In this document: piece by piece, positions 15,799-63,465 of the stretch | Layout of the letters: each line of letters starts with the position of its first letter | How positions within the stretch are numbered: the first letter of the stretch is position 1 | From: Arcuatula senhousia | Lineage: Eukaryota > Mollusca > Bivalvia > Mytilida > Mytilidae | Assembly (NCBI GenBank): GCA_963971305.1 | Contig: OZ020308.1 | Coordinates: 31,587,275 to 31,651,274, forward strand | Direction of reading: 5' to 3' | DNA length: 64,000 nt | Position numbers and translations under genes: made by a program | The notes under the pieces: model-generated | What the model was told of the DNA's origin: nothing | What the model saw: only the letters and a program-made list of their open reading frames with translations | The model's database searches: none

Positions 15799-18700
15799 GT
15801 CTCGCCTGCGTCTTTAGTCGATGAAGGCGAGACATAGGTATTACTTTCCGGCGGCGGCGACGGCGTAATCTTTTTTGTAAGACTTTTGTGGAAAATGAAT
15901 TACAAGAAAAGTATTATAGCTAGGCATCTGATATTTGGTATATAGACAGTTGGGGTAATGGTCTACGCAACTGGCACCATGCTGTTGGACCTTGACCCCA
16001 ATTTCATGGTTCAGCGACTCTGTGAACTTAGATGGGTTTTTTTTCGGACCAAAAGACCCCTTTGTAAGACTTTTGTGGAAAATGAATTACAGGAAAAGTA
16101 TAATAGCTAGGCATCTGATATTTGGTTTATAGACAGTTGGGGTTATGGTCTACGCAACTAGCACCATGCCGTTTGACCCTGACCCCAATTTCATGGTTCA
16201 GCGACTCTGTGGACTTAGATGTTTTTTCGGACCAAAAGACCCCTTTGTAAGACTTTTGTGGAAAATGAATTACAGGAAAAGTATAATAGGCTAGGCATCT
16301 GATATTTGGTATACAGACAGTTGGGGTTATGGTCTACGCAACTGGCACCATGCCGGTTGACCCTGACCCAAATTTCATGGTTCAGCGACTCTGTCAACTT
16401 AGATATTTTTTGGACCAAAAGACTCCTTTGTAAGACTTTAATGGAAAATGAATTACAAGAAAAGTATAATAGCTATGCATCTGATATCTAGTATACAGAC
16501 AGCTGGGGTTATGTTCTACGCAACTGGCACCATGCCGTTTGACTCTGACCCCAATTTCATGGTTCAGCGACTTTGTGAACTTAGTCGGTTTTTTTGGACC
16601 AAAAGACCCCTTTGTAAGACTTTTGTGGAAAATGAATTACAGAAAAAGTATATTAGCTAGGCATCTGATATTTGGTTTACAGACATTTGGGGTTATGGTC
16701 TACGCAACTGGCACCATTCCGGTTGACCCTAACCCCAATTTCATGGTTCAGCGACTCTGTCAACTTAGATGTTTTTTTGGACCAAAAGACTCCTTTGTAA
16801 GACTTTAATGGAAAATGAATTACAAGAAAAGTATAATAGCTATGCATCTGATATCTAGTATACAGACAGCTGGGGTTATGGTCTACGCAACTGGCACCAT
16901 GCCGTTTGACCCTGACCCCAATTTCATGGTTCAGCGACTCTGTCAACTTAGATGTTTTTTTGGACCAAAAGACTCCTTTGTAAGACTTTAATGGAAAATG
17001 AATTACAAAGAAAGTATAATAGCTATGCATCTGATATCTAGTATACAGACAGCTGGGGTTATGTTCTACGCAACTGGCACCATGCCGTTTGATTTTGACC
17101 CCAATTTCATGGTTCAGCGACTCTGTGGACTTAGATGTTTTTTTTTTCGGACCAAAAAACCCCTTTGTAAGACTTTTGTGGAAAATGAATTACAGGAAAA
17201 GTATAATAGCTAGGCATCTGATATCTAGTATACAGACAGTTGGGGTTATGGTCTACACAACTGGCACCATGCTGTTGGACCCTGACCCTAATTTCATGGT
17301 TCAGCGACTCTGTGAACTTAGATGGTTTTTTTGGACCAAAAGACCCCTTTGTAAGACTTTTGTGGAAAATGAATTACAGGAAAAGTATATTAGCTAGGCA
17401 TCTGATATTTGGTTTACAGACAGTTGGGGTTGGTCTACGCAACTGGCACCATGCCGTTTGACCCTGACCCCAATTTCATGGTTCAGCGATTCTGTCAACT
17501 TAGATGTTTTTTGGACCAAAAGACTCCTTTGTAAGACTTTAATGGAAAATGAATTACAAAGAAAGTATAATAGCTATGCATCTGATATCTAGTATACAGA
17601 CAGCTGGGGTTATGTTCTACGCAACTGGCACCATGCCGTTTGATTTTGACCCCAATTTCATGGTTCAGCGACTCTGTGGACTTAGATGTTTTTTTTTCGG
17701 ACCAAAAAACCCCTTTGTAAGACTTTTGTGGAAAATGAATTACAGGAAAAGTATAATAGCTAGGCATCTGATATCTAGTATACAGACAGTTGGGGTTATG
17801 GTCACACAACTGGCACCATGCTGTTGGACCCTGACCCCAATTTCATGGTTCAGCGACTCTGTGGACTTAGATGTTTTTTTCGGACCAAAAGACCCCTTTG
17901 TAAGACTTTTGTGGAAAATGAATTACAGGAAAAGTATAATAGGCTAGGCATCTGATATTTGGTATACAGACAGTTGGGGTTATGGTCTACACAACTGGTA
18001 CCATGCCGGTTGACCCTGACCCGGTTCAGCGACTCTGTGAACTTAGATGGTTTTTTTTTCGGACCAAAAGACCCCTTTGTAAGACTTTTGTGGAAAATGA
18101 ATTACAGGAAAAGTATAATAGCTAGGCATCTGATATCTAGTATACAGACAGCTGGGGTTATGGTCTACGCAACTGGCACCATGCTGTTTGACCCTGACCC
18201 CAATTTCATGGTTCAGCGACTCTGTGGACTTAGATGTTTTTTCGGACCAAAAGACCCCTTTGTAAGACTTTTGTGGAAAATGAATTACAGGAAAAGTATA
18301 ATAGGCTAGGCATCTGATATTTGGTATACAGACAGTTGGGGTTATGGTCTACGCAACTGGCACCATGCCGGTTGACCCTGACCCAAATTTCATGGTTCAG
18401 CGACTCTGTCAACTTAGAAATTTTTTGGACCAAAAGACTCCTTTGTAAGACTTTAATGGAAAATAAATTACAAGAAAAGTATAATAGCTATGCATCTGAT
18501 ATCTAGTATACAGACAGCTGGGGTTATGTTCTACGCAACTGGCACAAATGCCGTTTGACTCTGACCCCAATTTCATGGTTCAGCGACTTTGTGAACTTAG
18601 TCGGTTTTTTTGGACCAAAAGACCCCTTTGTAAGACTTTTGTGGAAAATGAATTACAGGAAAAGTATATTAGCTAGGCATCTGATATTTGGTTTACAGAC

Positions 18701-20381
18701 ATTTGGGGTTATGGTCTACGCAACTGGCACCATGCCGGTTGACCCTAACCCCAATTTCATGGTTCAGCGACTCTGTCAACTTAGATGTTTTTTTGGACCA
18801 AAAGACTCCTTTGTAAGACTTTAATGGAAAATGAATTACAAGAAAAGTATAATAGCTATGCATCTGATATCTAGTATACAGACAGCTGGGGTTATGGTCT
18901 ACGCAACTGGCACCATGCCGTTTGACCCTGACCCCAATTTCATGGTTCAGCGATTCTGTCAACTTAGATGTTTTTTTGGACCAAAAGACTCCTTTGTAAG
19001 ACTTTAATGGAAAATGAATTACAAAGAAAGTATAATAGCTATGCATCTGATATCTAGTATACAGACAGCTGGGGTTATGTTCTACGCAACTGGCACCATG
19101 CCGTTTGATTTTGACCCCAATTTCATGGTTCAGCGACTCTGTGGACTTAGATGTTTTTTTTTCGGACCAAAAAACCCCTTTGTAAGACTTTTGTGGAAAA
19201 TGAATTACAGGAAAAGTATAATATCTAGGCATCTGATATCTAGTATACAGACAGTTGGGGTTATGGTCTACACAACTGGCACCATGCTGTTGGACCCTGA
19301 CCCCAATTTCATGGTTCAGCGACTCTGTGAACTTAGATGGTTTTTTTGGACCAAAAGACTCCTTTGTAAGACTTTTGTGGAAAATGAATTACAGGAAAAG
19401 TATATTAGCTAGGCATCTGATATTTGGTTTACAGACAGTTGGGGTTATGGTCTACGCAACTGGCACCATGCTGTTGGACCCTGACCACAATTTCATGGTT
19501 CAGCGACTCTGTGAACTTAGATGTTTTTTTTCGGACCAAAAGACCCCTTTGTAAGACTTTAATGGAAAATGAATTACAGGAAAAGTATGATAGCTAGGCA
19601 TCTGATATTTGGTTTACAGACAGTTGGGGTTATGGTCTACGCAACTGGCACCATGCCGGTTGACCCTGACCCCAATTACATGGTTCAGCGACTCTGTCAA
19701 CTTAGATGTTTTTTGGACCAAAAGACTCCTTTGTAAGACTTTAATGGAAAATGAATTACAAGAAAAGTATAATAGCTATGCATCTGATATCTAGTATACA
19801 GACAGTTGGGGTTATGGTCTACGCAACTGGCACCATGCCGTTTGACCCTGACCCCAATTTCATGGTTCAGCGATTCTGTGGACTTAGATGATTTTTGGTT
19901 TGTGGAAAATAAATTAAGTTAAAAGTATAATAGCTAGGCATCTGATATTTGGTATACAGACATTTGGGGTTTAGGTCTACACAAATGACACCATGCTGTG
20001 TGACCCTGATCCCATTATCATGGTTCAGTGACTTTGTGAACTTAGATGATTTTTGGGTGGAAAATGAGTTAAGTAAAAAAGTATAATATTATAGCTAGGC
20101 ATCTGATGTTTGGGAATTATGGTATATGCAACTGATGTCACCATGTAATGTGACCTTGACCCCATTTTCATGGTTGGATGACTTAGTGAATGTTGGTATT
20201 TTTTCATTGTTTCTCAATAACAATGGTATCTAGAACACACTTCAGACATTTTTGTGATGGTTAAATGGAATTCTGTCATCGCACATGACCTTGTCCTTAA
20301 CTTTTCTGAAGGCCCAGCTAGACCTTCAATGAGTTCTGTAATGGTGCCGACAGGCGAGACATACTTTAGTGTCAACTCTTG
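15799..20381 (+). mobile_element. element bounded by GTCTCGCC hairpin and CTTG end, expanded by satellite
   Basis: It opens with a hairpin (GTCTCGCCT at 15799-15807, AGGCGAGAC at 15825-15833) and closes with 'ggcgagacatactttagtgt' and CTTG|T at 20378-20381, the same terminus as the element ending at 9959. The satellite array fills nearly all of its length. It lies wholly in intron 1 of the amine oxidase gene. Confidence 0.55.
15871..20060 (+). repeat. ~183-bp satellite array, ~22 regular units plus diverged edge units
   Basis: The phrase 'ttgtaagacttt' recurs about every 183 bp (15875, 16051, 16245, 16428, 16613, 16795, 16978 and so on to 19731). Each unit has 'aaaatgaattaca', 'ctatgcatctgatatctagt' or the variant 'ctaggcatctgatatttggt', 'ggttatggtctacgcaactg' and 'aatttcatggttcagcgact'. 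At least two unit types (tttgtgg and tttaatgg after 'gac') are interspersed. Edge units after 19890 are strongly diverged. The many ORFs of 60-180 codons on both strands here are by-products of the repeat. Confidence 0.9.
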
Positions 20382-27179: not shown

Positions 27180-27425
27180 TAGCAGCGCGACGAGTGTGCT
27201 AAAGCAAGCAGAATACTCCTCCGGAGTACCTGAGTTCACTCTCGTTAAGACTTGAGTTTGCGCTGCTGATTGCTTTTCGGTTGTTTTTGTATTTTGGTGT
27301 TTTTGTGTTTGTCTGTTTATTCGTTCTATTTCGTTCGTATTTACTGGTTTAATTCGTTTTTGCATTTTCGGACTTTTTACATTCAGATACCCCATTGGTA
27401 CCTCTGCGTCTGCCATGCATTGTTT
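27180..27425 (+). mobile_element. 5'-truncated 3' end of the Penelope-like retroelement (intron 2)
   Basis: The stretch from 'gtgtgctaaagcaagcag' through 'cctgagttcactct' to 'accccattggtacctctg' matches the segment that directly follows the reverse-transcriptase remnants at 49840-50045 and 63260-63465. So this is an isolated 3' end, as left by an incomplete retrotransposition. Confidence 0.65.
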
Positions 27426-29754: not shown

Positions 29755-29794
29755 GGTATAGATTATTATATATCTTACCTCTTAACAGAAGCAG

Positions 29795-29990
29795 AGGTAC
29801 CAATGGGGCAGCCGAATGTCCTAAATCAAAAAGCACCAACGGGAACAGGACGAGAAAACAAACAACATACAACACAGAAACACAAAATCAACTGAAAGCA
29901 ATAAACAACACAAACTCAAGTCGTAACGAGAGTGAACTCAGATGCTTCAGAAGAATATTTAATTCCTGCTTGCTATAGCACACCCGTCGT
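29795..29990 (-). mobile_element. 3' end of the Penelope-like retroelement, reverse orientation
   Basis: Read on the minus strand it gives the same series as 27180-27425: 'ggtgtgctatagcaagcagg', 'tctgagttcactct', 'cccattggtacctc'. It abuts the hammerhead-like motif above. Confidence 0.6.
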
Positions 29991-38858: not shown

Positions 38859-39114
38859 GTGTGGGTTCAATCCTGTTAATAGCTTTAGTACCCCTTTTCT
38901 GTTATATGGATGTCTGATGACGAGTCGTATGGTGAGTTGCCCGTGTGAGGTAAGTTTTCCTCTTGTTCTATGTTAAAGACGGGAGAGAACTGCCTGGTAA
39001 AGATAGAGGCTTTATCTGTAGGTGTTGCAGTGTCCCGTTGTCTTTTAGGGGTGCTATTCCTGAGCTATCAGACTTCCTGCTCTTGATGAAAGAGTAGAAC
39101 TTATTGTTGGTGTC
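38859..39114 (-). pseudogene. LINE segment between endonuclease and RT
   Basis: Minus-strand translation includes DTNNKFYSFIKSRKSD and SGIAPLKDNGTLQHL, the usual LINE linker upstream of the RT. It joins the sequence ending at 46924 across the 7.8-kb transposon, and 38242 across the MULE-like MITE. Confidence 0.75.
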
Positions 39115-39213
39115 ATATGGGGAAATGGCGATCATTTTATTCATGAGTCGCTATCACGTGACGTCGTCATGAATATTCATGAGTAACGCTGTAATGACGT
39201 CACGTTTGTTTTG

Positions 39214-40806
39214 ATGACCGCCATTGGAATGCAAACTCGGAAACGTCAAATCGATTTTCGTAAGCTGGTTGAAGTTGTGGCCATTCCAAAGGAAGAAAAA
39301 AGAGGAAATCCTGAAGTTTATGACCAATTGTCACGAGTCAATGTTGAACGCTTGATAACCAGGAAAACTATTAACAGTGTAAGTAAATTGCGCATACGAA
39401 TCGATGATCCACAGACCACACCAATGACGCCCCCTTTTTCCACATTTGACCTATGCTATTCACGGCTTTTAACAACTTTATGGATTGTTTATATGGAATA
39501 CTCAGTGCTTTAATGTGGTATTCAGGAGAAAAAATATAGCATACATTTTAAATAATAGATCAGATTGTTCCGAAGCTATTGTCTAAAACGATACGCTGCA
39601 GTATAAAAAAGGGGGTGTTTAATGCTGTAACGCTATGACCTTGTACAGCTATGATTTCCCAACAAATTTATACCTTTTGCTCTAGCTACGTAAAATGTTT
39701 TTATTGGGTACAGCGTGCATGTACCCTTTTTAGTTTTTATGAGCGTCCAAATTTAATTTTTCGCTCAACTGGGACTCAACTGCTTTTTTAATTTTATCCC
39801 TACGTAGGCAGTCGTAGTCAGAAGGCTTATTAGGCCTTAAAAAGATGTGTGTTTAGGGTAACCCGACCCTACCTAGATTTTTCTTCCCAACCTAAAGTTT
39901 TTTTTTTTTTTTGAGGAAAAAAATATTTTTTTCAGCTCGATGTATCAAGTCCATGTAAAAAAATAAAAAAATAAAAAATAAATTACTACCTACCCTACCT
40001 AATATTTTTCAAGCCGTTATCCTAAACAGACATATTTTTTCGGCATTACCTCTGGGTCATTGTTTTCCAAAAAAAGAAATATATTGTCACTTTCAAAGAA
40101 TGTTAAATTCGAACATTTTGTTTGTATATGTAAATACCATAGCAGATATGAACTGAACATGGATGCTAAATATGGAGCGGACAATAGATCAATAAATATG
40201 TTTAATACTTATTATCAAGGAATACAGTTGCTCGTATTCCCATCCAACATCTTTACAGCAATATGTGTTTTTAATATTGATTTTAATCGCCTTAGTTAAC
40301 TATATTTTTATTTTCCTTTTCAGGAACCGCATTATCTAGTTAAATGGGAGGACTATTCTATGTTTGACTGCTCTTGGGAACCAGAACATCACCTACCAGC
40401 AGCTATAATTGATGGATACTTCAATCCAACCGTCACACCAAGCCAGATAGAGGCAGCTTCTGACAAATTCTTATGTGGGATAAAGGCACGTTTATCTCAG
40501 AGGTGCGGTCATTTTTATTACGTAGACCTAAACTTCACACTCTACCGATATTTATTTGGGCAAGATGACACCAAGCTTTTTCATAGACACGATTTTGACA
40601 GATTTCAATTTCCTGAAGACTGGGATAAACACTTTTACAGTGAACACGGAGACGGGAGGGCAATTGAATTTCCCATGAAAGTTTTGCCAGTGTTAAAGTG
40701 GTCCAAAAAGGGATTGATTAAAACTGAATCCGGGTCGTATCAGCAGGCAAAAAGATGTCCAATGGAGTATTGGAAAATAGAACTCTGCACCAAAAGATTA
40801 ACTTAA
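39214..40806 (+). CDS. chromodomain protein of the transposon (2 exons, 215 aa)
   Basis: Exon 1 is 39214-39378 (ATG at 39214, donor AGT|GTAAGT). Exon 2 is 40324-40806 (acceptor CCTTTTCAG, phase 0, stop TAA). The join creates a chromodomain at residues 42-95: VNVERLITRK, then HYLVKWEDYS and SWEPEHHLP. Two of the three aromatic cage residues are present (Trp63, Tyr66); the first (usually Tyr) aligns with Val42. The N-terminus is basic. The C-terminal 120 residues (for example FGQDDTKLFHRHDFDRF and VLPVLKWSKKG) are not recognised. The start lies only 95 bp inside the transposon end. It probably reads methyl-lysine chromatin marks and could guide insertion; that role is inference. Confidence 0.75.
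39846..40034. mobile_element. MITE in the chromodomain gene intron
   Basis: 'atgtgtgtttagggtaaccc' and the mirrored 'gttatcctaaacagacatat' form imperfect arms. Inner copies of ctacc/cctacc and a T run sit between them. Confidence 0.5.
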
Positions 40807-41403
40807 CTTTATAACAATGATAATTTTAACAAAATGATAATAACTTAAACTGGTGTTTTTATTGCCAAACTATCATATCTTATTATGTTTTGTCAAGGCA
40901 TGGGTTTTTGTCTTCTTGAACGATTCCTGGTTTCCATTTATTCTCCTATTTATAACACATGAATGGCAGCTGAAATGTTTATGGACAGATAGGTTGATAT
41001 GGAGTGAATGTGTGTGTAATAATGGATCAAAAAATGCATCATTTTCTATGTATATTTTTACGACTTTCTGTTTACAATGACATACTTTTAAAATGGTTAT
41101 GAAATGGGAAAAGAGAATCAGTTTCATTCTGAATGAATTTATAGGTGTGCTGATTTATAGTACCTTTTAATTTTTATAAAACAAACATAACTGCACATGT
41201 CGCTGGTTTGTTAAAATAGAAATCAGTTTTCATCCAGATGTCAATTGTTTATCCTTGTTTTAGGTACTCTGTATTTCTGGAAGACTGGTAAAAAGAACAA
41301 CTTCAAGATTTTCAAGTACAATTCTATCATAAATTACTCTATACTCTTTCAACAAACAGACAATCACAATGAGTGAAAATTTGACAAAAATTGGGAAACA
41401 AAG
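40807..41403. other. no feature seen
   Basis: Between the chromodomain gene and the hammerhead-type array. An AATAAA-like signal close to the stop was not found. Confidence 0.4.
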
Positions 41404-41767
41404 CTTCACACGCAGTGAAATTTTGCCTTTGTACATTTATTAAAATCATTTCAATATGTGGATCGTGTCTTTTTGGCACATATTCCATATTCTTTCGTTT
41501 TTAATATTATTTCAGAGTTTGGCTTTAGTGCCGTGTGGAGGTCGTAGAAAGCTTCCCTGTGCTTCAGTTGTATGCTCTTATATATTTTCGAGTATTGGAA
41601 TATGTGTTGGAAAGACACAGTTTACATATTTCCAAAATTTGACAACGTTTGGCTGTTTCTTTAAAAATTGATAAATTTATCTGTTTGGTCGTTGTTGTAA
41701 TATGTTTAGGCATTTGTTTTTTGATCAAATCTAATATTCTTCCGGTTTTCCAAGTTTTCTTCTCCTA

Positions 41768-41809
41768 GCGTGTCTGATGAAGGTTAATCCAGAAAAGCGC
41801 TTCACACGC
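41768..41809 (+). ncRNA. hammerhead ribozyme-like motif (copy B)
   Basis: Identical to the motif at 838-879, core included: GCGTGT, CTGATGA, GAAA, AGCGCTTC and ACACGC. Confidence 0.45.
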
Positions 41810-42163
41810 AGTGAAATTTTGCCTTTGTACATTTATTAAAATCATTTCAATATGTGGATCGTGTCTTTTTGGCACATATTCCATATTCTTTCGTTTTTAA
41901 TATTATTTCAGAGTTTGGCTTTAGTGCCGTGTGGAGGTCGTAGAAAGCTTCCCCGTGCTTCAGTTGTATGCTCTTATATATTTTCGAGTATTGGAATATG
42001 TGTTGGAAAGACACAGTTTACATATTTCCAAAATTTGACAACGTTTGGCTGTTTCTTTAAAAATTGATAAATTTATCTGTTTGGTCGTTGTTGTAATATG
42101 TTTAGGCATTTGTTTTTTGATCAAATCTAATATTCTTCCGGTTTTCCAAGTTTTCTTCTCCTA

Positions 42164-42205
42164 GCGTGTCTGATGAAGGTTAATCCAGAAAAGCGCTTCA
42201 CACGC
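42164..42205 (+). ncRNA. hammerhead ribozyme-like motif (copy C)
   Basis: Third identical motif, 396 bp after copy B. Predicted self-cleavage at B and C would release one 396-nt unit. Confidence 0.45.
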
Positions 42206-42303
42206 AGTGAAATTTTGCCTTTGTACATTTATTAAAATCCTTTCAATATGTGGATCGTGTCTTTTTGGCACATATTCCATATTCTTTCGTTTTTAATATT
42301 AAA

Positions 42304-44838
42304 TATAGACAATTCATAGAATTACAAAGTACCGAAAACAAGGATTTAGCAATTTTTAATAATATAGAGGTAACATCAAGATCAAAAGTCGAATGCGTTT
42401 TTATCTTCACAAACGAAATATTATGTGAACTTGGAAAAATAATCCAAAAAACTAATTTGTCAAATATAGACATTTTGAACAACAACTTACCAAAAAATAC
42501 ACCACCTATGAAAGAAAATGTACAGCGTGTCGAGCAATCTCTCCGGAGAAGAATATCTGAGGCCAAGTATACGGCTGCCAAACTAAAAGGCAGGAAAAAA
42601 TACGAATTTTTGGCAAAACAAGTCCGCTTCATAATTTTAAGAGGCGAATTTCAGGACATTACTGAAATCTTACAAAAAGCAAAAAAAGAATCAGAAGAAA
42701 AACAACAGCTTAAACAACAAGTCCTGCAACTAAGTATCGAAATTGCAGATCTCCAGACAAACGTAAATCGCATGCATGTTCAGAATGAACAATACGAGGT
42801 GACTCTCAAAAAATTTGTTGAAAGAAATTCAAAATTAAACAGCCTTGTACAATCTTTAACACAGAAATTTGCAAATACTGGGAAAAAGATAGGCGGCTGT
42901 TCACGCGTGACGGTGAGGAGAAAGGTTAAGCTTCTAAGAAGTCGAGTAGAAAGTGCACTTTGGTTTGCAAAATCGTTTGGTGTAGAGTTCACATCAATAC
43001 GCGTAGTAGATGAGACAGGCAGAGAATTTGATTTACTAAAAAATAAATCTGCAAATTTTAAAGATTTATGCGAGGATGACAAAAACAAAGTTAAATCTCT
43101 CTTATACATTCTTGATACGTTTGGTATTTCTGATGATGCGTATCACGAATTGTCACTCAAACACTCGTCTATGGTCAGGTCTTATCTTATTAAGCAATGT
43201 CGTGAGGATATCAATAGAACAATTATCATATCTGAGACACCAGGTACTTCACGCGGAGCTCAACTTGACCTTATCGAAACTTTAGATAGACTCATTATAG
43301 ACAATGTGCAAAATGCCACTATCGTTCAAAATGGCTCGTCAAAGCCTGTAGTCAGGGTAAAATTTTCGGCGGATGGTGCCAAAATGTCACGTTTAGCCAA
43401 TTTCTTAGTATTCTCCTTGGCCATATTGAATTATGGGCAACACGTCATGTCATGTCCTGCAATGGTTATCAAACAATTGCCATTGTAGATTGTTCTGAAA
43501 ACTTTGTTTCCTTAAAGGAATCGTTTAAAGATATCTTGAATAGCATTAATAGTCTTTTAGCGAGGGACAGTAATGGAAAAATTCCTTTCGTAACATCAAA
43601 TAATACTGAGGTTGAATTAGAGCTATTCATAGGCGGAGACATGAAGTTTCTATTAATGGTATGTGGACTGAATGCAGCGAACTCGAAACATGCATGTCTA
43701 TATTGTAAAATTCAGAAAGATTCGAGGGGTGATACATCAAAATCAGAAAACTTTTATCTGCTAGATAATAATAGACGAACAATATCAGAAATGAAAAAAT
43801 TAGCAAACAAAAAGACTAACAATTTCGGCTGTATTCATCCACCTCCGATTGACATCGATCTTGATCACATTGTCGTTGACGAACTACATTTGCTGATGAG
43901 GATAATTGATGTACTTTTACGAAATTTGATCGAGGATGCCGTGAATAGGGACCAAAGAGAAAAAATTAGGGGTGAACGCACACCGAAAAATCTGTCAAAT
44001 TTAGTAAATATCATAAGATCATGTGGGGTTAGCTTTTCAGTTTGGGAAAAAAAGATGAAGGATGGCCGCGGTGATTTTTTAAAGAATTTGGAATGGACAA
44101 GTCTAACTGGGAGCGACATGAAAAAGCTGTTAAGATATCTGCCTCAAAAACTATCTGAGAGTACCTTACCCAGTATAACCGAAGACACTAAAGAACATGT
44201 AATTTCATTGTGGTCGAACTTCAGCAATGTCTATGGTATAATAAATAATTGGGCACCAAGCGAAGAAGACATAGATTCATATTTAGCACCTGAGTTCACT
44301 CTTGTTTCGACTGGAGTTCGCGTTGTTGATTGATATTCAGTTGTTTTGTGTTTCCATGTTTTACGTGTTGTCTGTTTTTGTCCCGTTCTTGTTTGTGTTT
44401 ACTGGTTTAGTCTCTGCCCTTTCGGACTTTTGACATTCGGATACCCCATTGGTACCTCTGCTTCTTTGAAAAGGCTAGGTCTTGGGTGAATGACTTTCTT
44501 TATCTTAGCCAGTATTTAGAAGGTTATGATAGGAAATCTGTTACACCATACATGCATATCATGTTGTATCATATACCCATGTTTCTGAGAAAATATAAAA
44601 GTGTCAAATTATTTACCGGGCAAGGTGTAGAAAAGGTAAATGACGATATTAAACTAATTTACCATAGAAAGACAGACAAACATAACACAACAACAGACGC
44701 CCTCCGAGTACGATATAGGAAATATCTCATTCGTAAATGTACCCGAATAAAACGTAAATACATCAAGACAAATGACCATTATTGGAATGTGCAGAAAAGA
44801 GAAGCTGCACGGTTAAAAATCAGAACAGATGTGTAAAC
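42304..44838 (+). pseudogene. DDE-type transposase of the 7.8-kb transposon, broken
   Basis: Three pieces of one protein. Piece 1 (to about 43452) has a basic region (RRRISEAKYTAAKLKGRKKY), a coiled coil (about residues 150-215 of that frame) and the first acidic motif SADGAK (Asp codon 43372). Piece 2, in another frame from 43452, has FIGGDMKFLL (Asp codon 43638), a C-x2-C motif (CLYCKI) and DELHLLMR. Piece 3 (44469-44838) has TGQGVEKVNDD (Glu codon 44630). The order D, D, zinc-like Cys pair, E recalls RAG1/Transib-type RNase H-fold transposases, but that is inference. Breaks: a 5-bp tandem duplication near 43450 and a retroelement insertion at 44286-44468. The N-terminal start is lost or lies in an exon hidden by the repeat array. 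Confidence 0.7.
44286..44468 (+). mobile_element. Penelope-like 3' end inserted in the transposase
   Basis: 'gcacctgagttcactcttgt' to 'attggtacctctgcttcttt' matches the 3' segment of the retroelement at 49870-50045. It separates EEDIDSY from EKARSWVNDFLYL in the transposase and introduces a stop. No clear duplication of the target. Confidence 0.75.
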
Positions 44839-45026
44839 AGTTTAATATACAAACGAGACAGTGATTGAACTTAAGATTGTCATTGCATACAATGTTTGAC
44901 ATATTCTTTTTTCGAAGTTCTATTTTTAAAAGATTTTAATATTTATTGTCATTTCAAATGAACTTTGTTGATTACATTATTTACCCTCGTTTATAATCTA
45001 TTTATTTGTTAATTGTGGTCCGTTTT

Positions 45027-45294
45027 CACCCCTAGGAACACGCGTATCGGTTCAAATAATTTCTTTTATTATCTTAGTTAAGCATATCGTGCCCAATAAT
45101 TTCTTTTATTACACACGCTATTTTTTGTATTGCTGTTTTTTTAAAGGGAACTTGATCCAATAGTAATAGAAGAAATTATATTTCCCGATACGCATCTTCA
45201 GAACAGGTAAAAAGTAATGAGATATTCGTTGGCAAGTAGGGAGCCACCTACAATAAAAGAAATTACTGTCTCGATACGCGTGTTCCAAGGGGTG
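45027..45294. mobile_element. 268-bp MITE inside the transposon
   Basis: CACCCCTAGGAACACGCGTA is mirrored by TACGCGTGTTCCAAGGGGTG with one mismatch. Subterminal copies of 'aataatttcttttatta' face each other. No clear flanking duplication. Confidence 0.65.
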
Positions 45295-46910
45295 GTTGTC
45301 CAACATATATTCACTCCATTACACCCTTTTCATGTGTATTTTTTTTATACAAATTAATGTAAAAAAATATGTGGAGACAACAAAAAAAATATGAGAGAAG
45401 CACTCAAAGCCAAAACATCCGAAAATAAATAATGTTTCTGTTGAAGGCTGCTTTGAGTTTAAATTGACGCACTTAAAATGGTCAAGATGCAATTTGGGTA
45501 ACTCTCGGGGTTTGGGACATGTACTAGTCAGGCCTAAAATTAAAGTGAGGATTATCCTTACACTACAGTCATAAAACAAAAACAATTGCAAAAATATCCA
45601 CACAGAGAAAATCCATATGTGGAAAATAAAGTTTTATGCCGATAAATAATACCGTTGTTGGGATTCGGGATTAGAAATTTTTCATTTCATGATCGATCCG
45701 GGCATGATTGACCCTTATTTTTAATTCGCCGGGTCTGGGAAGTCAGTCGGGAAAAGTCATTTCATTGGACTTCAATATGTAAAAATATCGCGAAGTTATA
45801 ACTGCATATTTTGAGGAGTGACCTCTCGTCAGCTACATTAAAATCTAATCAATAGGAAGATAGGGACATCAAATATAAGGAGCTAGAGAAGAACTCACAA
45901 CTGAATATTCCCGGGGAGGTAACTTCCTATATAAGGATAGGGAAGTGTGTCTGGATTTTTATACGTCTGGTATGTGAGGGTCGTATATGCATGGGTCCCA
46001 TTTTCAGAATTTTCAATTATGATAATCCTTTTCAGATTTGATGGTAAAATTGCCGTTTTCTTCTCAATTTGGAAGTCTAAAGGATGCCAAATGAACCAAC
46101 TGTACAATATTCTTGAGTATCAATCTAAATTGTTTGCTTGCATAATAATTATTCATGATTCATAAAATGTGCTAAAAATGATATTAATATGAATTTTCGA
46201 GCCAGGGTCTCTGTATATGTAGGCCACTTTTCTCTATGGTATATGTATAATAGGTAGGGTATTTAAATTGCCAGCTGCACCTGAGTACGGAAAATATAGA
46301 CTACAGTAGGTACCCCCCGGATGAATAGACGATTTTCACTAAGTTTCACTGAAACACAAAGAATCATAGTGTATATATGGGAATCGTAGTACGATACCTC
46401 TAATCCGGACGTCAAACTGGTCGACGTTACGACAATCTTCTAAATGACGGCTTAACAGGCTTTAAATCGATTTTAAAATTCAAAAGGAACTTTTTTTACA
46501 TATCCGAGGAAAAAAAATATTGAATTTTCCGGAAATATGTTCGTAGTTGTTCCGAAACAGCACCTGGTATATACAACTTCCGGGTTTGCAACGTCATTTT
46601 TTTATGTTGTGAAAACGTAAACAAAACCATTTTAAACCAAAATTTTGATAGTTTTAATGTAAATAAAAGGACTGTTTCTCTGCTGACTTCAGGATGTAAA
46701 GGAACTTTTTCTGCTTATCGTGTAATCATGATTTTTAGTTCAGTAAACGCAGAATTTCATGCTCTTTATTTTGATCACCTGGAACCTAAAGATTGTCAAG
46801 GTCTGTTGTTGCTGGCGAAATATAAAATAATTATTGCTATATATTCCATAATAACGTAACGATGCCGACGTCGTCAACATGGCGATTATGCAAATGACGT
46901 CAATGACGTT
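45295..46910. other. transposon 3' region without genes
   Basis: Non-coding interior of the 7.8-kb transposon. The last 60 bp hold acgtc-type motifs (gccgacgtcgtc, atgacgtcaatgacg). Confidence 0.45.
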
Positions 46911-46923
46911 CATTTCCCCATAT

Positions 46924-47530
46924 GTTATCGTCTGATATCATGTTGTTTACATATTCGTTGTACGTGTTTCTACATATCTCTCTAGGTTTCTTTTGGCTGT
47001 GATGGTAGCGATCCCAGTCTCTTTTTGTACGTCAGTCTGTTTTGCTTTATTGTGGGTTCTCTTTTTCTTACGACAGTGCCTTTTTGTTGATTTGTTGCAC
47101 CAGGGTTGGCTGAATCGGGTTGATGCGAACTTTGATGGTATTGGATGGGTTGTTTTGGATGGTATCGGTGCATGCCTTCTTAAACTTGTTCCAAAGTGTG
47201 TCCACAGGTGTTGAGGGATGAGCACTTTTCAACGTTTCTGAGAACTGTGGTAGGTCTACCGACATCTTGTCTGTGTTTGCTTTCGACAATATGTGGGTGA
47301 TTATTCTGACCGGACGTCTTTGTTTTGCAATAATGTGTGTGTCAATGAGGACCACATCATAATCGCTGAGTCCAGGAAGTGGAGAGGACAGGCTGATTAG
47401 TGTTGGTCGGTTTGTGGCAAATATGTCTAAGGTATTGGTTCGACTTGTTGGAAAGTCGATGACCTGCTTACAATCAATGCTTTGAAATGGTCGATAAATG
47501 GCTGGTTGACGAAGGATGGATAAGCCATTC
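46924..47530 (-). pseudogene. LINE endonuclease C-terminus and linker
   Basis: Minus-strand translation in shifting frames gives QVIDFPTSRTNTLDIFATN, then PLPGLSDYDVVLIDTHII, DTLWNKFKKACTDTI and EYVNNMISDDN: the end of an APE-type endonuclease and the linker to the RT. It continues at 39114 leftwards once the transposon is removed. Confidence 0.75.
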
Positions 47531-48004: not shown

Positions 48005-50045
48005 GACATTCCTTCCCTGTATTAGATTCCTAAATTACATAACAATCCATACAAACAGCTAGCGCTTCATTGTAGTGTCATCAAAATGTGCAACGAAACC
48101 CCTTTCAGTTCTGTTGACTTCAATACTAACTGCAAAATACCGGCCTCCAGAAATATTACTGTTATTGTTGTTATTCTAGAAATGGTGTCGATCAAATGTG
48201 GATCCGTAAGAATTCGAAAGAACTATTGGAGATTCTTAGCTCGTAATCAGTTTCATCTTGCAACAGTATCAAAACTTTCGATTTCTCCACTCTTTACACT
48301 TCTATTCCGCATGAACAACTCAAATCACGATTGGCACAGCTGATTTAAACGCAGCTTTTTTCCAAAAAGAATGGAAAACGCAGATACAAATATCTGGTAG
48401 TCGATTACAGCTGAGAACATCATATCGAAGAGAATCGAATCATTCTATTAACATAAGAAATGGCTGAAAAAAACAGTGTCGCTCTTGTGAAGATCTAGGA
48501 TCCTCTCGATTAAACTTTGGTGTTTCTACATTATATTCAAATATAAATGTATCTTTAGATATTAGATAGCTGAATTTCTCGTACATTGTTTAATATTATT
48601 CTCGAAGCGTTTTATTTATTGTTTTGTTTGTAATTTAATAAAATCTGAAGGATGGTGAAAAAAAAAAAAAAACACCACGCGAACAGACTGATATTTGTCA
48701 CAATAAACAAATTTCCTTATCGAGAGTTATCGGCCAGCGGGCGCCCTGTAAAAACAGGAAATTGACCAATTTCAAACTGTTAATTAGTTGACCTGAATTT
48801 ATCAAATTACCTCAAAATTTCACCTGAATATTCTCGAATCATTTTGCTATTTAACAGTACTAAATAAGATACTATAAGGTAAGATTTGATATGAAATGTA
48901 TAAGATTTCCAAGAAGTCTATTTCTAAGTTTGAATTTGGAAGAAAATGTACGATTGACTTTAAATTATTCCTTTGGAAAAATATGTGATAAAAATGAAAA
49001 GAAAAATAGACTAAACAAAGCAGCAAAATATACTCTTTCTAACGGTGTATGTATTTCATGTGTACGATTCATTATGAAAAAGTTTACTCGCTTGTAATGC
49101 AAGTGCCCATTTCAACAGACCGAATCTGAATTTACAAATTAGCGCGGAGACACTGTTATTTTGGAATTATCGTGGAGACATATCTCTTTAATTATTGTCT
49201 CAGATTAATGTAAGACTTACTTTGTCATCAATGAGTCTAAGAAAAAGAACAAATATACAGAAGACCAAATAGTCGACATGCTCAATTTTCTTATTGACAA
49301 CATATATGTTCAGTTTGTTGGACGTGTTTTTTAGCAAACATAAGTGATTCTAATAGGCACTAATTGTGCACCGTTGCTTGTTGATTTGATTATACCTTCA
49401 TATGAAGTCTGCTTCATATTTAGATCTACATCTCGAAATTGACTACCAAGGAAGACTTTAACAAAGCTCTATGACAAACGTGATGACTTAAAATTTCCAA
49501 TCGTCAACTTCCACTTTTTGTGTAGCAACATTCCGTCCGCTCCTGCTTATGGTGTCTTCGTATCACAGTTGATTTGTTACTCGTGAACTTGTGGGAATCA
49601 CATCGATTTCTTTAGCATAGCGTCACGTTTGACACAGAACTTGCTGCCACATGGTTATGTTGCTCCAATGTTGCTGTCTACACTTAAGAAATTTTACGGA
49701 AGACACTATGCACTCGTAGACAAGTATGGGATCTCTATCTCTCAAGTACATGTAAGTGCAGATGTTGGTTTGTCCTAGGAATTTGTTTTGTCTTCCTTTA
49801 CCGGATTTGACACACTGAATTGGAAATTAGCAACACGACAGGTGTGCTATAGCAGGCAAGAAGCAATTACTCTTCCGGAGCACATGAGTTCACTCTTGTT
49901 TCGACTTGAGTTCGCGTTGTTGATTTCCGTTCGGTTGATTTTGTGTTTTGTGTTTCTTCGTGCTGTTTTTGTGCGTGTTAACTGTTTCGTCGTTGCCATT
50001 TCGGACTTTTGACACTCGAATTCCCCATTTGTGCCTCTTTGCTTC
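48005..50045 (+). pseudogene. Penelope-like reverse transcriptase, decayed (copy 1)
   Basis: Frame-shifted pieces in order: IPKLHNNPYKQ (48030), TFDFSTLYTSIPHEQLKSRL (48277), TYFVINESKKKNKYTED then MLNFLIDNIYVQF (49216-49320), GTNCAPLLVDLI (49350), SASYLD-like traces, LKKFYGR (49690) and YGISISQ. They are followed by the family 3' end (49840-50045). Stops and frameshifts throughout. Relative to copy 2 a stretch is missing after 'tcatatgaag' (49402), including the YxDD motif. An unrelated ~800-bp piece interrupts it at 48412-49212. Confidence 0.7.
48412..49212 (+). mobile_element. insertion in the Penelope-like copy, with poly(A) retroposed end
   Basis: The host frame stops near 48412 and resumes at about 49214. 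AATAAA at 48637-48642 is followed 15 bases later by 15 A residues (48658-48672), as at the 3' end of a retroposed transcript. What lies after the A run (to 49212) is not recognised. Confidence 0.5.
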
Positions 50046-51169
50046 TTTCATATCAGAGCATTTAACCTGTCATTCATTACCTAGTAACTATTGATGCATA
50101 ACACTCAAAGATCATCACCTGTCTATTCAATTTCTTTTAATCTTTAAATCAAGTGCACTTGTATTAAATAAAGTGTGAAAACTCGTTCCTAGGAAGTTTA
50201 AATATTTCTACAAATGTTAAATCAATACAACGTCAGTGTGAGCGCGGCCTAGGTAAAGCATCAACTTAGGATTGACGTATCTCTTCCAAAGTGTTAGGTG
50301 CGCCTTGACTATAGTATCATTTTATAGGAAAATATTATTGTGTATTTGATTTTTTTTATGCAGATTTTCCTGTTTCGGGCAAAGTCTAATAGTAAATTAC
50401 ACCCCCCTTTTGACACAAAAGTTAGAATTTTTTAAACTTAAACCATTTTTGGTTGTAAAATTTCTTATGTAAGTCATGAAATGATTTAAAAACAATTTTC
50501 TCCTAAAGTGTCAAGTATAGTAGTTTTTTTTAAAGATCTTGAGAACAGCGTTAACAACACAGTAGCACTTTTCTACAATGTACCTCGTTTAAAAAATAGA
50601 GTAAAATTCTATTGTTCTCTTTTCGGTTGAAATCAGACTGTAATGCATGTATCAGCAAAAAAAAGATTATTTATTCCAATAACGACATGAAGAAGGATTA
50701 AATCAAAACGATGACAGATTCGCAAATTTGATAGCAATTTACGACAAAAGGCAAAATCAGAAAAGGGTATATACCGATTACTAGTACACGAAGACAAACA
50801 AAATTTCTTACGTACCAAATCATTTTTAACGCACACAAAAATACCCTTTTTACTTCCGCCATATCAAGATTGTAAAATCTCTAACTCCTACAAAGTCATT
50901 CAGCATTGTAACAAAATTGGTTCCCCTTTGTGCGTTATCTATATTATTTTTTACATGACTAGAAAATAGCATTAATTTGATTGGCCTAAACAACCCTAAA
51001 ATGTATTGATGTAGAGTAGAACAACCTAAAAATGTCTAAATATAGTAAATAAACAGGATGGAAAGCGATGTTACCCTACTATTTCCTAAAAATAGATTCC
51101 AGACCCCTGCTAGTGACTAAAAATAGATTTCCCCCGAACAAAGTTCAAAGAAAACATTCCAAAAAATCT
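50046..51169. other. no feature seen
   Basis: AT-rich, no ORF with recognisable content. Confidence 0.5.
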
Positions 51170-63195: not shown

Positions 63196-63465
63196 GATTT
63201 GGTTTGTCTTCCTTTTCCGGATTTGAAACACTGGATTGGAAATTACCATCACGACGGTGTGCTGTAGCAGACAAGAACCGCCTACTGTTCCGGAACACCC
63301 GAGTTCACTCTTGTTTCGACTCAAATTCGCGTTGTTGATTTCCGTTATGTTGATTTTGTGTTTTGTGTTTCTTCGTGCTGTTAATGTTTATGTTTACTGG
63401 TTTCGTCGTAGCCCTTTCGGACTTTTCTAAGTCAAATGCTCTTTTGGCGCCTCTTTGTTTCTTTC
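63196..63465 (+). mobile_element. Penelope-like 3' end following copy 2
   Basis: 'ggtgtgctgtagcagacaag', 'acccgagttcactcttgttt' and 'tttggcgcctctttgtttct' match the isolated 3' ends at 27180, 29795 and 44286. This continuity is what identifies those as parts of the retroelement. Confidence 0.7.

Follow-up and report, generated by a model that had tools for sequence, protein, structure and literature searches.

Can a cut-and-paste DNA transposon carry a chromodomain gene as a fixed part of itself, or is such a gene, where it stands beside a transposase gene, a captured or coincidentally neighboring host gene? This question is raised by a locus of the bivalve Arcuatula senhousia (assembly GCA_963971305.1, contig OZ020308.1, positions 31,587,275 to 31,651,274), where the stretch of 64,000 nucleotides that was analyzed, referred to here as the window, holds a two-exon chromodomain gene and a transposase gene between inverted terminal repeats. 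An initial annotation, made from the letters of the window alone, had proposed a DNA transposon with its own chromodomain protein and had set two tests in advance, namely, whether other copies lack the chromodomain gene and whether this gene is a single-copy host gene. Pairing of the two genes across the genome, seen from either gene, strongly supports the view that a cut-and-paste element here has a stand-alone chromodomain gene among its fixed components.

The genome (1.036 Gb in 1803 contigs) was searched with both proteins. The chromodomain protein gave 39 matches: the two exons in the window, three weak matches, and 34 further copies of the gene, among which L044 and L045 are short C-terminal matches. 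These 34 copies answer the second of the preset tests and rule out a captured single-copy host gene. The three weak matches (E values of 0.002 to 0.004) lie in open reading frames (ORFs) of 1369, 1369, and 479 amino acids, which are presumably those of chromodomain retroelements; among the best candidates listed, they are the only matches outside the gene copies with an E value of 0.01 or below. A transposase on the same strand was found downstream, inside the flank, at 27 of the 28 chromodomain loci read with 1.5-kb flanks (the miss is L027) and at three (L041, L043, and L046) of the six read with wider flanks, a total of 30 of 34. In the reverse direction, the transposase gave at least 58 matches in 43 clusters, one of which consists of two merged neighboring copies. 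The N-terminus is kept in 26 clusters, window included, if this is defined as a match starting at residue 140 or earlier, a limit set after the list had been viewed. In 24 of these clusters, a chromodomain gene lies 59 to 1492 nucleotides upstream, and in C1574 the upstream gene is split by an insertion, which brings the total to 25 of 26; the single miss, C8:18000310, is a transposase with ten stops. Among the 17 clusters without the N-terminus, an upstream chromodomain gene was found within 12 kb in 5. The first preset test was thus answered in favor of the proposal: diverged families keep the two genes together, whichever of the two the search starts from, and the chromodomain gene is almost certainly an integral partner gene of the element.

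At least one young family shows the two genes moving together as a unit. The five copies of family A, located on four chromosome-size contigs, are 99.5 to 99.9% identical over the 3.5 kb compared and have different flanks, and four of their five transposases are open over 795 amino acids, the remaining one having stops. Several copies of family C are 95 to 99.7% identical. In six families, as well as in the window, the chromodomain ORF is separate, with its own stop before the transposase ATG, and the distances between this stop and the ATG in the six families are 22, 35, 43, 50, 97, and 132 nucleotides (L043 is ambiguous). Gaps of this size leave scant space for a second promoter, and a single transcript is therefore inferred. 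By eye, family A has a possible splice acceptor right before the transposase ATG.

In the element of the window, read from the left, a terminal repeat is followed by the two-exon chromodomain gene and, in the same orientation, the transposase gene; a stretch of about 2 kb with no clear coding content then leads to the inverted terminal repeat. Its features are as follows.

39113, left target-duplication base, T, 1 bp (identical flanking base in six of six insertions)
39114 to 46924, plus strand, whole transposon, 7811 bp (CATATGG ends common to unrelated insertions; open frame regained across the join)
39114 to 39127, plus strand, left terminal inverted repeat CATATGGGGAAATG
39214 to 39378, plus strand, chromodomain gene exon 1: basic N-terminus and first half of the chromodomain, with homology to the N-terminus of Mytilus edulis P0097
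39379 to 40323, plus strand, predicted intron, GT..AG
40324 to 40806, plus strand, chromodomain gene exon 2: second half of the chromodomain and conserved C-terminal region, ORF intact
41369 to 41402, plus strand, probable transposase start, MSENLTKIGKQ (by-eye alignment with the N-terminus of P0001)
41403 to 42301, plus strand, repeat array with a 396-bp period, 2.3 copies, inside the transposase gene (94% copy at 558 to 976)
42301 to 43455, plus strand, first long open piece of the transposase: first catalytic Asp at 43372 to 43374, then a frameshift
43443 to 44333, plus strand, second piece of the transposase: second Asp (GGD) at 43638 to 43640, CxxC at 43695 to 43706
44285 to 44474, plus strand, dispersed short repeat within the transposase gene or overlapping it (further copies near 27225, 29778, 49879, and 63296)
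44483 to 44836, plus strand, last piece of the transposase: H4H at 44555 to 44572, catalytic Glu (GVEK) at 44630 to 44632, stop
46911 to 46924, minus strand, right terminal inverted repeat CATATGGGGAAATG
46925, right target-duplication base, T, 1 bp (six of six insertions and restored frame)

These borders differ from those first proposed, which were GGGGAAATG ends flanked by a 4-bp ATAT duplication inside a long interspersed nuclear element (LINE) continuous across the insertion. The inverted GGGGAAATG pair is present (39119 to 39127 and 46911 to 46919), but it does not mark the true borders, as CATAT belongs to the terminal repeat; the ends are perfect 14-bp inverted repeats, CATATGGGGAAATG. 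By itself, GGGGAAATG is weak evidence for element ends: it matches the window three times versus 0.45 expected, and three matches were reached in 1 of 100 shuffles. The ATAT duplication was not upheld. CATAT is carried by the element, the CATATGG start recurs at unrelated sites (L050 and the five family-A copies), and a single base is duplicated; because CATATG is its own reverse complement, two inverted ends take on the look of a direct repeat of ATAT. At L050, which is on contig C8 and unrelated, CATATGG stands ahead of a stretch that matches the initial 101 bp of the element at 78%. All five family-A copies start with CATATGGCAAAAT, and in the copy at C5:14.7 Mb CATATGGCAAAAT is exactly inverted at the other end, 8,178 bp away. 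The right end of three family-A copies has CATTTG in place of CATATG, and since this variant is common to three copies at unrelated sites, those bases are part of the element. CA..TG termini, as CATATG..CATATG or CATATG..CATTTG, were thereby confirmed for the window and family A. An earlier 14-bp terminal-repeat candidate for family A was wrong, and copy-to-copy comparison gave the true ends. A search for CATATGG in the loci of other families found no ends, and the left boundary of family C is blurred by insertions.

The single flanking base is identical on both sides in all six insertions whose two ends were read (the C14 copy and L050 were read at the left end only). The base is T in the window, C at C5:14.7 (where the second base matches too), C at C6:56.0, C in the C12 copy, A at C5:43.7, and T at C6:20.05 Mb; assuming equal base frequencies, and with a boundary chosen after inspection, the chance of such agreement is about 1 in 4,000. 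When the window flanks are joined without 39114 to 46924 and one base, an 83-amino-acid open frame runs through the junction, whereas joining by the GGGGAAATG ends minus 4 bp breaks it into 37 and 54 amino acids in different frames. The continuity of a LINE across the insertion was consequently borne out in so far as a coding frame continues through the junction, but its identity was judged by eye and the sequence is frameshifted elsewhere; the host sequence looks like a degenerate LINE. The C12 copy of family A is inserted into a further copy of the dispersed short repeat of the window, and three of five repeat copies align best with its flanks joined minus one base; of the other two copies, one favors two bases and one favors none.

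No second full copy of the family of the window was found in the genome. The first 282 bases of the element match only themselves and one stretch of 101 bp at 78%. There are 12 exact occurrences of the 14-bp end in the genome (2 of a control pattern), and no two such ends lie on one contig at element distance apart from the pair in the window. At C6:20048744-20049625, an element of 882 bp, of which only the ends were read, is bounded by family-A ends on either side and too short to hold the genes; it is probably a non-autonomous, internally deleted derivative. Two family copies at C8:20103009-20112661, 7.3 kb apart and 99.8% identical, represent either a tandem duplication or an assembly artifact. 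The right flank of the C6:56.0-Mb copy (L058) resembles, by eye, the start of a tRNA gene.

As compared to the intact protein P0001, the transposase gene in the window is broken three times, by the repeat array, the frameshift near 43.45 kb, and the short repeat at about 44285 to 44474. The assignment of SADG, GGD, and GVEK to one transposase held up: 108 proteins matched, and in the 20 that were aligned neither Asp varies, and most of the proteins read GVEK. P0001 has D371, D458, C477xxC480, H706xxxxH711, and the Glu of GVEK, and the same motifs are found in the pieces of the window, so that the D..D..E arrangement with C(2)C and H(3-4)H between the second D and E is present. CxxC, HxxxxH, and Glu align with BbRAG1L/RAG1 in single stretches that are weak (independent E values of 0.16 and 0.96 for 6b40), and GGD is aligned only in a 2.3-bit stretch. 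The transposase has a RAG1-like catalytic core fold and belongs to the RAG1/Transib type (CMCT, broadly defined). Academ was considered as a candidate home of this transposase and was dropped on the RAG1 match, with no Academ sequence compared. No Chapa zinc-finger domain, as known for Chapaev/Chapaev3, was among the Pfam matches listed, and no Chapaev sequences were compared. Pattern searches of prokaryote genome contigs and viral contigs gave 45 and 54 matches, respectively, none of which was confirmed as a transposase locus. Protein P0049, a transposase of the same family, is filed under the symbiont metagenome-assembled genome Candidatus Thiodiazotropha taylori and is most likely host-animal contamination of the bacterial assembly.

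The 215-amino-acid, two-exon chromodomain protein of the initial annotation was corroborated by its intact ORF, a match to Pfam Chromo (PF00385), and chromodomains in the PDB. Exon 2 alone scored 29.3 bits (gathering score 25.1; E value 8e-07). The PDB chromodomains align with residues 37 to 90 (best E value 2.1e-5), and as this alignment spans the predicted splice, it supports the two-exon model. All nine exon-2 proteins of the genome that were aligned matched Chromo at an E value of 0.1 or below (best 2.9e-09), the gathering score having been checked for the protein of the window alone. The best PDB matches of the exon-2 profile are the chromodomains of SUV39H1, CDYL2, and HP1; only Chromo was found in these proteins, with no detectable relation to kelch or PHD. 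Beyond the chromodomain, the alignment contains a conserved region of about 110 amino acids, and 13 positions are invariant over its whole length, with identity to the protein of the window ranging from 23 to 42%. A motif search located exon 1 in four families (A, G, B, and F) and not in the seven other rows tried. The first position of the aromatic cage, which we take to correspond to that of HP1, as for the other two, is occupied by Tyr (families A, G, and B) or Phe (family F and Mytilus P0097); the second and third positions are also aromatic in all five. The protein is probably a histone-methyl reader. A single-sequence protein search with the chromodomain protein gave 43 candidates, none with an E value of 0.001 or below, and a structure prediction of exon 2 from three rows reached a predicted local distance difference test score of 37 and was not used.

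The distances between chromodomain proteins and between transposases in eight families are correlated (Mantel r of 0.72, permutation p of 0.002), with distances near saturation and two subgroups accounting for much of the correlation. In the one moderately diverged pair computed, nonsynonymous divergence (dN) was 0.076 and synonymous divergence (dS) 0.268 over 93 codons, which points to purifying selection. Among the 108 transposase proteins, which include Pinctada and Mytilus names, M. edulis P0097 is the sole one with an N-terminal homologous chromodomain (33% identity over 87 amino acids, including the stretch ahead of the chromodomain). Its transposase part is 41% identical to that of the window over a third of the query, and the model skips part of the catalytic core. 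The fusion is probably a gene-prediction error; it still sets both genes side by side in a named species. A transposase tree was built from 40 rows, namely, 31 of the 108 proteins and nine rows from A. senhousia, with family E omitted as too short. All nine own-genome rows fall into one group of 21 rows, with support of 83/77, which is not among the strongest; this group is made up of two well-supported subgroups (99/99 and 100/100). Rows with cnidarian, sponge, and hemichordate names lie outside this group, the root being arbitrary. The simplest reading of this tree is that the chromodomain gene was gained once, in the ancestor of the 21-row group.

Taken as a whole, the window probably holds a decayed copy of a RAG1/Transib-type (CMCT-like) lineage with a tandem chromodomain gene and DDE transposase gene, in which the chromodomain protein may dock the transposase on methylated chromatin. 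Both proteins would be made from one transcription unit, either dicistronic or alternatively spliced. As suggested by fold and anatomy, the transposase would act in RAG1/Transib fashion, binding at the CATATGG ends, cutting and rejoining, and leaving a one-base duplication. The chromodomain protein would bind methylated histone tails as a non-catalytic partner, its conserved C-terminal region may contact the transposase, and the complex would be docked on methylated chromatin, probably of the type with methylated histone H3 lysine 9 (H3K9me), with cutting or insertion there, as the PHD finger of RAG2 docks RAG1.

A number of observations weigh against this interpretation. Four of the 34 chromodomain loci have no transposase in the flank (L027/L035, L042, L044, and L045), a likely partner of L027 lying 10 kb further on, and L046 retains only a C-terminal transposase piece. 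No chromodomain gene was found within 12 kb in 12 of the 17 transposase clusters without the N-terminus. The two genes of the window lie 562 nucleotides apart, outside the range of 22 to 132, and the first cage position there is Val; L042 is without another cage residue. The few insertion sites read showed no preference. The profile of the nine exon-2 proteins matched only P0109 among the 762 proteins scored, which were those of 0.55 to 1.75 times the query length, and this lone match stands next to transposase relatives that are abundant in cnidarians and sponges. The whole transposase family may thus not require a chromodomain partner.

What the chromodomain protein does for the element can be read in several ways. 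Docking on methylated chromatin is its likeliest benefit, with anti-silencing and a RAG2-like allosteric role as real rivals; that the protein serves mainly to dock or target the transposase is slightly less likely than not. For anti-silencing, the protein would sit on the H3K9me or H3K27me (methylated histone H3 lysine 27) of the element and exclude HP1- or Polycomb-type proteins of the host, so that the transposase stays expressed and insertion is not steered. A stand-alone protein with a chromodomain nearest to the SUV39H1, CDYL2, and HP1 types and no further recognized domain agrees with this, as do the epigenetic cargoes, fungal TET/JBP genes, described for other CMCT-type transposons (PMC12730594). 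However, the conserved region of about 110 amino acids and the co-divergence with the transposase suggest a specific partner, and a simple decoy needs neither, which leaves anti-silencing an unlikely explanation, if one to be taken seriously. The same C-terminal conservation, together with the RAG1-type core of the transposase, also fits a RAG2-like allosteric cofactor that stabilizes or activates the transposase-DNA complex, chromatin reading being secondary. The lack of a detectable kelch or PHD relation speaks against such a cofactor. To our knowledge, HzTransib is active without such a partner, and this explanation is considered rather more doubtful still.

The two remaining explanations deny the chromodomain gene a role in the element. 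Chromodomain genes are common in hosts and the transposase family is widespread without a detected partner, so that a captured host gene might hitch-hike with no function for the element; but the pairing is kept in at least eight families, whose chromodomain proteins share 24 to 43% identity with that of the window, with mostly intact ORFs, co-divergence, and dN below dS, and hitch-hiking is highly improbable. Chance nesting of two unrelated elements or genes overlapping in the window, which a single locus could not have ruled out, is refuted by the pairing of 30 of 34 and 25 of 26 loci and can practically be dismissed.

Comparison with known systems sets the lineage apart. According to the description of Martin et al. 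2020 (PMC7204232), RAGL transposons have CAC ends, 5-bp duplications, and convergent RAG1L and RAG2L genes, and the sea urchin RAG2L PHD binds methylated H3K4. As compared to this account of RAGL/ProtoRAG, the partner in A. senhousia is a chromodomain protein instead of a kelch-PHD RAG2L, the genes are in tandem instead of convergent, and the CATATGG ends with a 1-bp duplication differ from the CAC termini and 5 bp of both RAGL/ProtoRAG and Transib. Identity to the HzTransib transposase (6pqx, 6pqr, 6pqn, and 6pqy) is 13 to 15%. We know of no chromatin-reader partner of HzTransib. By the tests run, the lineage resembles a RAG1-type element with a chromatin-reader partner and not a RAGL or Transib element. 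The CMCT group, as outlined by Kojima 2025 (PMC12730594), comprises EnSpm/CACTA, Mirage, Chapaev, Transib, Plavaka, ESTA, and Lanisha, and some of its fungal members are described there as carrying a TET/JBP epigenetic gene; Chapaev is grouped with Transib and RAG1 in Kapitonov and Koonin 2015 (PMC4411706). Enzyme type and CA..TG ends are shared with this group, as is an epigenetic gene with those fungal members, whereas the 1-bp duplication, versus 2 to 5 bp there, and the chromodomain cargo are not, the comparison resting on these descriptions apart from the Transib structures. Among the best matches listed from the open literature, none reports a DNA transposon with a chromodomain gene; Repbase may catalogue the lineage under another name.

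Several repeats were also noted in the window. The 396-bp unit, whose copies in the transposase gene are near-identical, looks like another mobile or tandem-forming repeat. The dispersed short repeat has five copies (44285-44474, 27225-27411, 29778-29946, 49879-50048, and 63296-63426), the four outside the element being 72 to 79% identical to the one within. An inverted-repeat unit with 23-nucleotide arms (96%) at 45027-45294, in the non-coding 3' part of the element, is possibly a nested miniature element, and at 15874-19896 a 183-bp unit is repeated in tandem about 22 times.

In chromoviruses (Gypsy-type), the chromodomain is fused to the integrase and is a proposed guide of integration. The lineage described here is likewise a mobile element with its own chromodomain, but the gene is separate, upstream, and next to a RAG1-type DNA transposase. 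Because the transposase is of the RAG1/Transib type, RAG1-RAG2, the textbook case of a transposase that acquired a chromatin-reading partner, is a closer functional parallel than the chromovirus integrase named in the initial annotation. It is possible, if somewhat short of likely, that the lineage represents a second two-subunit recombinase resembling RAG1-RAG2 and assembled independently of it, with a RAG1-type catalytic subunit, an unrelated histone-methyl reader in which a chromodomain replaces the PHD finger, and 1-bp duplications. The elements also provide a naturally occurring DNA transposase with what may be a targeting module at its side, and their one-base duplication is unusual for a transposon lineage. 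If the parallel is true, RAG1-type transposases repeatedly recruit chromatin readers as partners, and the recruitment of histone readers would be a repeatable step of transposon evolution that is testable in the young, apparently intact family A.

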